Of a stretch of DNA of 34,963 bases, positions 21,885 through 24,155 are shown in pieces. Under the pieces are notes generated by a model. The model saw nothing but the letters and a program-made list of their open reading frames with translations. It was not told where the DNA came from and made no database searches. The stretch covers positions 1 to 34,963 of the forward strand of contig JANWVL010000154.1 of assembly GCA_025056655.1 (NCBI GenBank), read 5' to 3'. The translations under genes and the position numbers were made by a program. The DNA is from Candidatus Methylacidiphilales bacterium. Lineage in GTDB: Bacteria > Verrucomicrobiota > Verrucomicrobiia > Methylacidiphilales > JANWVL01. Positions within the stretch are counted from its first letter, which is position 1, and every line of letters starts with the position of its first letter.

Positions 21885-22283
21885 TTATTTAATCTCCACT
21901 TTAGCGCCTGCGGCCTCAATCTTCTTCTTGATCTCTTCCGCTTCTTCTTTACTGACGCCCTCTTTGATAGGTTTAGGAGCTCCTTCAACCAGAGCTTTAG
22001 CATCAGCCAATCCAAGGCCTGGAACTACAGCCCTGACTTCCTTAATCACTGCTATTTTGTTTGCACCTGCTTCTTTCAGAATCACGTCGAATGTGGTCTT
22101 GGCTTCAGCCGCAGGCGCTGGAGTAGCACCAGGGGCTGGAGCCGCACCAGGCGCTGCTGCAACGGCAACTGGCGCTGCTGCACTTACACCCCATTTTTCT
22201 TCAAGTTGCTTGACGAGCTCAGCTGCTTCTAATACCGTTAGAGCACTAAGCTGGTCAACCAGTGTTTTAAGATCTGCTGGCAT
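21885..22283 (-). CDS. rplL: Ribosomal protein bL12 (L7/L12)
   Basis: The stalk protein of the large subunit, present in several copies and recruiting GTPase factors such as EF-Tu. The 132-residue chain has the N-terminal dimerisation helices ([20 protein letters not shown]), a long Ala/Pro/Gly hinge (~residues 34-62) and the globular C-terminal domain ([20 protein letters not shown], then [20 protein letters not shown]). The hinge is rich in Ala-Pro-Gly and somewhat longer than usual. A good ribosome binding site (AAGGA) precedes the ATG. A 180-base structured spacer separates it from rplJ. Confidence 0.98.
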
Positions 22284-22320
22284 AGTTTTCCTTATTTATA
22301 ATTTTTCGTCCTATGAATTT

Positions 22321-22385
22321 AGTTTATCTAGTGTTATGCACCCGCATAACGATTATCGCTGAAGGGCTTCAGCGCTAGATAGACT
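22321..22385 (-). promoter_or_regulatory. Three-way-junction RNA element in the rplJ-rplL spacer
   Basis: An outer helix AGTTTATCTAG (22321-22331) with CTAGATAGACT (22375-22385) pairs at 10 of 11 positions in the minus-strand RNA. It encloses two perfect hairpins: GTTATGC/GCATAAC (22333-22350, 4-base loop) and CGCTGAAG/CTTCAGCG (22357-22374). Nearly every base of the 65 is used: only one base and a six-base linker remain at the junction. It ends 37 bases before the rplL ATG. Its function is not known to me. Confidence 0.75.
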
Positions 22386-22400
22386 AATGCCCTTTCCCCT

Positions 22401-22425
22401 GAGTGAGTGGGACGCTCACTCACTC
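22401..22425 (-). promoter_or_regulatory. 9-bp hairpin downstream of rplJ
   Basis: GAGTGAGTG and CACTCACTC flank a 7-base loop, 38 bases after the rplJ stop and 15 bases before the three-way junction in the transcript. No U-tract follows, so it does not look like a terminator. Confidence 0.7.
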
Positions 22426-22463
22426 GCCCGTAAATTCTTTGAATTCTAAATAGTAGGTTTAAG

Positions 22464-22967
22464 TTATCCATTCTTAGCCTTAATTAAGTAAGCAAGTTGG
22501 CTCGCTGGTGTATTCAAAAGCTGCGCAAGTTTATTAGCAGGCGCTTTGAGTAATCCTAAAATTTGGGCAAGCAAAACCTCCTTGGAAGGCAGGTCAGCCA
22601 AAGATAATATCTGATCTTGCGTTACTATTGCAGATTCTAGAATACCTCCTTTTAAACTCGGTTTCTTAAATTCATCTATAAAGTTTTTTAGAACTTTGGC
22701 GGCTGCACAGACATCGCTCTGACCAAAAACCACTGCCGTCTGCCCGCTTATCCCCGGTGTGTAGTCAGGCAGATTCAATTCCCTCAACGCTCTTCTAAGC
22801 AGTGTATTTTTAGTTACTCGGCATTGGGCATTAACTTTATAGAGACGATTCCGGAGCTCATTAAATTCAGATACCTTAAGACCAGTGTAATTAATAATGA
22901 TTACATACGGTGAGCGATTAATTTTTGATTTAATCCAGTCAACTATAGAATTTTTTTCAGGACGCAT
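22464..22967 (-). CDS. rplJ: Ribosomal protein uL10
   Basis: A 167-residue L10 protein, the base of the ribosomal stalk that anchors bL12 dimers. The N-terminal rRNA-binding part has SPYVIIINYTGLKVSEFNEL and the VTKNTLLRRAL helix; the C-terminal helix (LAQLLNTPASQLAYLIKAK) is where bL12 binds. The gene follows rplA by 16 bases, so the L10-leader RNA known from some operons cannot lie directly before it. The structured region is instead after it, before rplL. No Shine-Dalgarno sequence is visible. Confidence 0.97.
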   Translation of the reverse strand: MRPEKNSIVDWIKSKINRSPYVIIINYTGLKVSEFNELRNRLYKVNAQCRVTKNTLLRRALRELNLPDYTPGISGQTAVVFGQSDVCAAAKVLKNFIDEFKKPSLKGGILESAIVTQDQILSLADLPSKEVLLAQILGLLKAPANKLAQLLNTPASQLAYLIKAKNG

Positions 22968-22983
22968 ATAAATTCTATATATT

Positions 22984-23673
22984 CTAATTTTGAAGAGCTA
23001 TCTTAATAGAAGGAGAAAAAGTCGTTGATATAGCACAATTCAATATAAACCTTCCTTTTGAGGAGGCTGGTTTGGCTTTTGATAGAGCATCGATGGTTGC
23101 TTGTGCGTTCTCTGTAAGTGCTCTTTCTTCAAACGACGCCTTACCTATGTATGTATGGACATTTCCTGATTTGTCGAGTTTAAACTCGACTCGACCTGCT
23201 TTACATGCTTTCACCGCAGCAGCTGTATCGGTTGTGACAGTGCCCGTCTTGGGATTGGGCATCAGCCCCTTCGGTCCAAGAATTTTACCCAATTTCCTAA
23301 CTTCATTCATTGCATCTGGCGTAGCAATCGCTACGTCAAAATCCTGAAACCCTTCGCTGACTTTCTTAATTAAGTCTTCAAATCCAACGTATTCTGCACC
23401 CGCTGCCTTTGCGGCATCGGCGGCAGCCCCTTTAGCAAAGACTAGAACTTTAACGCTCTTTCCTGATCCATTCGGTAGCGTGACTGTTCCGCGCACCATT
23501 TGATCACTTTGTTTAGGATCTACTCCAAGACGGAAAGAGAGGTCAACTGTCTCGTCTGTTTTGCCTTTAGGGAAGGTCTTGAGTATTTTCACCGCCTCAC
23601 TTAGTGAGTAATGTTTTTGGGGATCATATTTTTTTAATGCAGCTAGATACCGCTTACTGTGCTTTTTAGCCAT
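22984..23673 (-). CDS. rplA: Ribosomal protein uL1
   Basis: A 229-residue L1 protein of the large subunit, forming the mobile stalk near the E site. Typical parts are SLSEAVKILKTFPKGKTDET, VDLSFRLGVDPKQSDQMVRG, KILGPKGLMPNPKTGTVT and EFKLDKSGNVHTYIGKASF. I chose the ATG at 23673 because L1 proteins begin Met-Ala-Lys-(K/R); a frame from 23733 would add 20 unrelated residues and overlap rplK. In many bacteria L1 represses its own operon by binding near rplK; the spacer here (56 bases) is too short to judge. Confidence 0.97.
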   Translation of the reverse strand: MAKKHSKRYLAALKKYDPQKHYSLSEAVKILKTFPKGKTDETVDLSFRLGVDPKQSDQMVRGTVTLPNGSGKSVKVLVFAKGAAADAAKAAGAEYVGFEDLIKKVSEGFQDFDVAIATPDAMNEVRKLGKILGPKGLMPNPKTGTVTTDTAAAVKACKAGRVEFKLDKSGNVHTYIGKASFEERALTENAQATIDALSKAKPASSKGRFILNCAISTTFSPSIKIALQN

Positions 23674-23729
23674 ATGAAGATGCATTGAACTTAAGCCGTG
23701 TGATAAAATAGATAATAGATAATAGCTGT

Positions 23730-24155
23730 TCAATCTACGATGTCAATACCCATGTTTCGAGCTGTGCCAGCTATTATTCGCATGGCCGCCTCATCGGAGT
23801 TGGCATTGAGATCTTTCCTTTTAATTTTAACGATCTCCATGAGTTGTTTTTTCGTAATCTTACCCACCTTAACCCGGTTTGGTTCTTTAGAACCTGAGGC
23901 AATTCCCGCCGCTTTTTTGAGAAGAGCTGCTGCCGGAGGAGACTTAGTGATGAAGCTAAAGGACTTATCTTTGTAGACTGTAATAACTACCGGGAGGATA
24001 TTCCCCGCTTCCTTTTGTGTAGCAGCGTTAAATTCCTTGCAAAAAGCCATGATATTGACGCCGTGTTGTCCCAGTGCAGGGCCGACGGGAGGAGCAGGGT
24101 TCGCCTGTCCCGCAGGTATCTGTAGGCGAATGTAAGTTGCGATTTCTTTTGCCAT
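23730..24155 (-). CDS. rplK: Ribosomal protein uL11
   Basis: A 141-residue L11 protein at the GTPase-associated centre. The N-terminal domain carries [20 protein letters not shown] and [15 protein letters not shown], including the prolines involved in thiostrepton response. The C-terminal rRNA-binding domain ends with [16 protein letters not shown]. It lies 18 bases after nusG in the usual secE-nusG-rplK-rplA order. A weak purine-rich stretch (AAGAAG) precedes the ATG. Confidence 0.98.

Follow-up and report, generated by a model that had tools for sequence, protein, structure and literature searches.

How cells set the excess of bL12 over L10 is an old question; to our knowledge, no other ribosomal protein is multi-copy. 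The question arises again at a locus of a Candidatus Methylacidiphilales bacterium (assembly GCA_025056655.1, contig JANWVL010000154.1; the whole stretch of 34,963 nucleotides is termed the window), in which a folded RNA separates the genes of the two proteins. What is this RNA, and could it serve the supply of bL12? The ORF list gives the gene order rplA, rplJ, rplL, rpoB and rpoC on the minus strand, with rplK and rplA upstream of rplJ in the same gene cluster. All features with coordinates given below are on this strand. The open reading frames of rplJ (L10, 22464-22967) and rplL (bL12, 21885-22283; matched to relatives by tblastn) adjoin the spacer upstream and downstream, respectively. 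Both identities are backed by matches to relatives, whereas the other gene names, including rplA (22984-23733), are based on ORF size and order.

According to the ORF limits the rplJ-rplL spacer comprises 180 bases (22284-22463), in agreement with an earlier note on this DNA, and contains the entire element. The same note had reported only 16 bases before rplJ. This is indeed the gap from the rplA stop to the rplJ start in the window, and 9-34 bases are found there in relatives from the same order. A Shine-Dalgarno-like AAGGA (22289-22293), read from the sequence 5 bases 5' of the rplL ATG, lies outside the folded structure. No terminator-like site (hairpin plus U run) was found at 22200-22560, and intrinsic terminators or internal promoters in the spacer did not rise above chance level.

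The element itself is a three-way junction RNA of 65 bases (22321-22385), arranged as P1-P2-J-P3-P1'. The outer helix P1 is formed by the 5' arm AGUCUAUCUAG (22375-22385) and the 3' arm CUAGAUAAACU (22321-22331); as described before, 10 of its 11 positions are paired on the operon strand, the remaining one being an A.C mismatch. P2 (22357-22374) and P3 (22333-22350) are hairpins of 7 bp with the loops GCCC (22364-22367) and GGGU (22340-22343), respectively. Of the two perfect hairpins of 7 and 8 bp proposed previously, the former corresponds to P3, whereas the latter has to be shortened to the 7 bp of P2, since an eighth pair would leave a loop of two bases. The description of the fold as leaving almost no base unpaired also overlooks the six-base junction AUAAUC between P2 and P3 (22351-22356), which is the most constant portion of the element across relatives. 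On the operon strand, positions 22315-22430 fold far beyond shuffled sequences, with -42.2 kcal/mol compared to an average of -28.1 for the shuffles (z -4.4), none of the 200 being as good. The fold of the opposite strand is marginally stronger (z -5.9), because A.C mismatches turn into G.U. Since both strands fold well, the choice of strand needed comparative evidence.

For this comparison, relatives from the order were retrieved via the rplJ protein and not via the RNA. Of 60 relatives, 50 yielded rplJ; none of them belongs to the window's family, and the closest ones are from the same order. An element of fixed length lies between rplJ and rplL in all 28 order relatives whose contig spans the spacer. 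Its consensus comprises (C/U)UAG in P1, a P2 of 7 bp with the loop GCCY, the junction W-UAAU, a P3 of 7 bp with the loop RGGU and the closing CUA(G/A). The closing CUAG/CUAG of the window is conserved, relatives showing a double change from C-G to U-A, and covariance model R1 contains the core of the element (22328-22378). An alignment of related spacers had been suggested earlier as a check of the fold. In the gap-free alignment A2 of 27 order sequences, 98.4% of the cells pair and double changes occur in 12 of 18 pairs; the individual values are 100% of cells and 5 of 7 pairs for P2, and 96% and 6 of 7 for P3. Both sides had changed in 103 cells, compared to 37 for shuffled data; the covariation score was 0.637 versus 0.221. 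When the partners were slid by one column as a control, pairing fell to 40-46%. RNAalifold recovered P2 and P3 from A2 with no structure supplied. Within A2 the UAAU of the junction is unpaired and invariant, and the GGU of the P3 loop is likewise invariant. In family f8 the element is longer by one base, and in a genome of an f8 genus (L113) the element was matched at chance level only. Matches of R1 outside the order were weak, had neither rplJ nor rplL nearby and were treated as chance.

The position is equally constant when it is approached from the RNA. A degenerate pattern, AGCCYTYNNNNNNTAATNNNNNNNCRGGTGNNNNNNNCTA, scanned over one genome per species in 84,980 species, hit 37 stretches. 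rplL follows directly in 36 of them, and rplJ directly precedes the match in 35 of these 36; in the remaining case (L153) no rplJ is visible, the stretch reaching only 78 bases upstream of the match. Tropicibacter provided the 37th match, which was taken as chance because neither gene is near. The 36 matches lie in Verrucomicrobiota, with titles such as Methylacidiphilales, Methylacidiphilaceae, 'subdivision 6' and other Verrucomicrobia. Five stretches with the rplJ-element-rplL locus of the order (L135, L152, L154, L159 and L167) bear the titles Blastochloris, Paceibacterota, Akkermansia muciniphila and Bacteroidetes, which are probably wrong.

Diverged versions occupy the same spacer in most of the class Verrucomicrobiae. 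With a strict geometry (at least 5 uninterrupted pairs in P1 and in both hairpins; J1/2 0-1, J2/3 5-8, J3/1 0-2), a three-way junction was found in 71 of 113 class spacers, whereas 20 dinucleotide shuffles gave 0-4 of 113 each. Some of the 42 spacers missed are clear cases interrupted by a single mismatch, including order members matched by the above pattern. J2/3 is mostly UNAAU, UGAAA or UCAAA in the class spacers. Alignment A3 comprises 24 sequences from other orders with the P1 helix GGU-NNN-UCGUC.../...GACGA-N-ACC. Here, 92% of the cells are paired, double changes occur in 16 of 23 pairs, and the covariation score is 0.533 versus 0.176; the conservation of P1 cannot be counted in A3, since the sequences were partly picked by that helix. 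The covariance model R2 was built from A3 and holds no member of the window's order. It places the window element precisely at 22321-22385 on the minus strand (25.3 bits, E 3.6e-8), compared to 4.5 bits on the plus strand. Hence, the two versions are linked and the operon strand is settled. Among 250 genomes of the phylum, R2 matched 20 class members, once each and in every case before rplL, and two matches outside the class, with neither rplJ nor rplL near, were treated as chance. This tally understates the spread because the filters were strict and because R2 misses the window's order and f12-like versions.

Family f12 (L121, L123, L126, L129 and L130) shows a third version of the junction, with GAGAUACGUCUC as P2 (UACG loop) and UUAAA as junction, which is recognised by neither R1 nor R2. 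In two reduced class genomes of 0.9 Mb (L100 and L109, family f14) the junction is absent; both carry a near-identical stretch, GGGTTTCAAGCACAGAAAAA(A)CTAAATCAAAGTAAAT, just 5' of rplL. In another class (that of G090), the genomes mostly have short spacers that lack a junction. The 3' end of the element is located 37 bases before the rplL start in the window and about 9-26 bases before it in the sampled other orders.

Besides the conserved junction bases and the spread across the class, the earlier note had missed a pseudoknot partner of P2. An AARGGC motif is found 5' of P1 in the order versions and in some neighbouring families and complements the P2 loop together with the first two stem bases. 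In the window this strand is AAGGGC (22389-22394), identified by covariation with GCCCUU (22362-22367) in the P2 loop region. The two sides co-vary as AAGGGC/GCCCUU, AAAGGC/GCCUUU and GAGGGC/GCCCUC. Among 40 distinct cases only two fail to keep all six pairs; 98.8% of cells are paired, and the covariation score was reached by no shuffle. Since the changes are clade-wide, they reflect a small number of events (two or more). AARGGC is separated from P1 by a linker of at least 10 bases, which is enough to span the inner helix, and in the window the pseudoknot would require the outer P1 to open. Its formation sacrifices the uppermost two pairs of P2 in return for 6-10 kcal/mol, entropy not counted. 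We rejected a nested switch with AARGGC and GCCYUU paired at the expense of P1 and P2, because it is on average about 9.5 kcal/mol worse than the junction and 3.6 kcal/mol worse on the isolated 74-base piece of the window. We therefore favour a pseudoknot formed on top of the intact junction, with pseudoknot entropy left out of the calculation. The loops of P2 and P3 are moreover complementary to each other (GCCY with RGGU in the order, RGCY with RGCY in many others), and a loop-loop contact is possible.

A further structure lies upstream of the junction. The 9-bp hairpin of the window (P0, 22401-22425; arms 22401-22409 and 22417-22425), already recognised previously, is the local version of a hairpin that generally follows rplJ at this place and varies in sequence. 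With mononucleotide shuffles as reference, the stretch between the rplJ stop and the junction has a mean z of -3.05, and 49 of 53 spacers are below -1.5; the window's own upstream piece is weak (z -0.8). The motif (A/G)AUUU, often ahead of this hairpin, occurs in 29 of 65 cases versus 3.8 in shuffles. Strong hairpins of variable sequence after the rplJ stop are seen in most class genomes, for example in L007, L054, L075 and L088; the corresponding region of the window is 22401-22463.

Does the element belong to a known RNA? The 23S GTPase-associated centre (H42-H43-H44), the binding site of L10-L12 and L11, is likewise a three-way junction, in which J is short on two sides and J43/44 is rich in A (UUUAAA in the organism's own 23S). 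Its loops and kink-turn are missing from the element, and sequence mimicry was rejected since neither R1 nor R2 matches this part of the own 23S, so that a geometric resemblance alone remains. No Rfam family was detected in the window at gathering or permissive thresholds or in the order relatives at gathering score, and other orders gave weak, chance-like matches only. L10_leader (RF00557) was above its cut-off in none of 195 phylum genomes, while control genomes were positive. One sub-threshold match in another class (L073:1501-1623; 36.2 bits versus a cut-off of 44) comes with a terminator-like hairpin, and an ordinary L10 leader may therefore survive elsewhere in the phylum. Membership of the element in L10_leader fails on the Rfam model, the location and the kink-turn. 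L10_leader is situated upstream of rplJ, whereas the element is situated between rplJ and rplL and forms a pseudoknotted three-way junction. L10 operators contain a kink-turn, but none is visible in the element by inspection: the internal loop of P1, an asymmetric 3x1 loop in other orders and a 1x1 loop or bulge in the window's order, is flanked by Watson-Crick pairs with no tandem G.A. Both RNAs reside in the rplJL operon, and the same ligand is plausible. In known operators L10(L12)4 recognises the kink-turn and an unpaired UAA (PMC4538822); the latter is shared by the element, which is a weak criterion alone.

As to its place, the candidate structured RNAs HMP2_2105 (Treponema) and HMP2_254 (Collinsella) are listed directly upstream of L7/L12 (PMC8040213). 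These are from other phyla and can be likened by location only; they provide a precedent for an RNA before the bL12 gene. For another protein and gene, a review describes S15 operators in the rpsO mRNA of Geobacillus and Thermus, where a protein-stabilised three-way junction can block ribosome binding (PMC10931766). A description of the element itself was not found in the literature searched. Judged from its sequence, it is an uncatalogued conserved RNA outside any Rfam family and distinct from L10_leader. Like r-protein leaders in general, it is a covarying structured RNA at a constant site before an r-protein gene. The earlier proposal of a structured RNA before rplL instead of an L10 leader is borne out by the conserved fold, the many compensatory changes and the single copy. 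Of the functions offered with it, additional bL12 output, binding by an operon protein and processing are each conceivable.

A common way of regulating ribosomal-protein operons is the binding of a product to its own mRNA. We propose that the element acts in cis as a leader of rplL, with the L10-L12 stalk complex as its most likely binding partner, and exerts feedback on rplL translation, a reading that falls a little short of probable. A leader inside the rplJ-rplL transcript would govern rplL translation separately from rplJ. Its P2 loop would be clamped by the upstream AARGGC in the window's order, UNAAU would remain unpaired between the hairpins, and the end of the element would mark the upstream edge of the 30S loading zone on rplL. 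A stalk protein, presumably L10(L12)n from the same operon, would bind the folded junction and tune rplL translation, which would amount to feedback on the multi-copy protein, the level and direction of which we infer. The fold, its covariation, the covariation of the pseudoknot, the exclusive position and the class-wide conservation are supported directly. The model of a leader is favoured because 28 of 28 relatives, 36 of 37 pattern matches and 20 of 20 class R2 matches have the element before rplL, and because covariation is strong in two separate alignments and extends to the pseudoknot strand. It is also favoured by the lack of L10_leader matches above cut-off among 195 phylum genomes and by the want of space for such a leader ahead of rplJ in the order. 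The element probably adjusts the amount of bL12 that is made. L10-L12 is suggested as ligand because the unpaired UAA of known operators resembles the most constant part of the element; the lack of a visible kink-turn and the failure of R1 and R2 at the GTPase centre argue against it. As the Shine-Dalgarno-like site is outside the structure, repression would need a steric block or another route. With somewhat more reserve, the junction may represent a new family of r-protein regulatory RNA that replaces the usual L10 leader in Verrucomicrobiae and controls bL12 within the operon, separately from L10.

The main rival to feedback by L10-L12 is a passive role as insulator or processing site that sets the L12:L10 ratio, for which we see a real, if rather doubtful, chance. 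Here, hairpin and junction would act without ligand by insulating rplL from ribosomes finishing on rplJ, by protecting or processing the mRNA, or by keeping the start open, which would yield several bL12 for each L10. The site directly before the sole multi-copy r-protein gene, the generality of a hairpin free of sequence constraint after rplJ and the end of the structure near the rplL start codon are all consistent with this. The invariant UAAU, the invariant GGU of the P3 loop and the co-varying pseudoknot, however, exceed the needs of an insulator or an RNase site. It is unlikely that the junction is instead the target of L1, L11 or a protein from outside the operon. rplA and rplK are upstream in the same cluster, and the branch geometry resembles the L11-bound GTPase centre of the own 23S, but L1 normally acts ahead of rplK, and for L11 the loops differ from the GTPase centre, which the models do not match. 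A riboswitch for a small molecule or ion would fit a compact, pseudoknotted junction with invariant loop bases; it is nevertheless very improbable, as the element is found before rplL only, while riboswitches are usually spread over the genes of one metabolic pathway, and has no Rfam match. The mobile palindromic repeat (REP or MITE-like) considered previously, to which the near-perfect palindromic arms and the folding on both strands might have pointed, has practically no probability left, since a dispersed repeat is excluded by the single copy of the spacer (DNA search) and of the element (covariance model) in the 2.4-Mb genome, and since position is fixed and changes are compensatory across order and class.

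Thus, most of a class keeps a folded RNA exactly between rplJ and rplL and, as far as tested, nowhere else, in a phylum without matches above cut-off to the usual L10_leader model. Its structure, location and class spread are well supported, and a ligand and a direction of control are proposed. With invariant bases and named compensatory pairs, the element is a defined RNA with which the intercistronic setting of the L12:L10 ratio can be probed, and R1 and R2 could seed a database family. If the proposed leader function is true, bL12, the sole multi-copy ribosomal protein, would be adjusted separately from its anchor L10.
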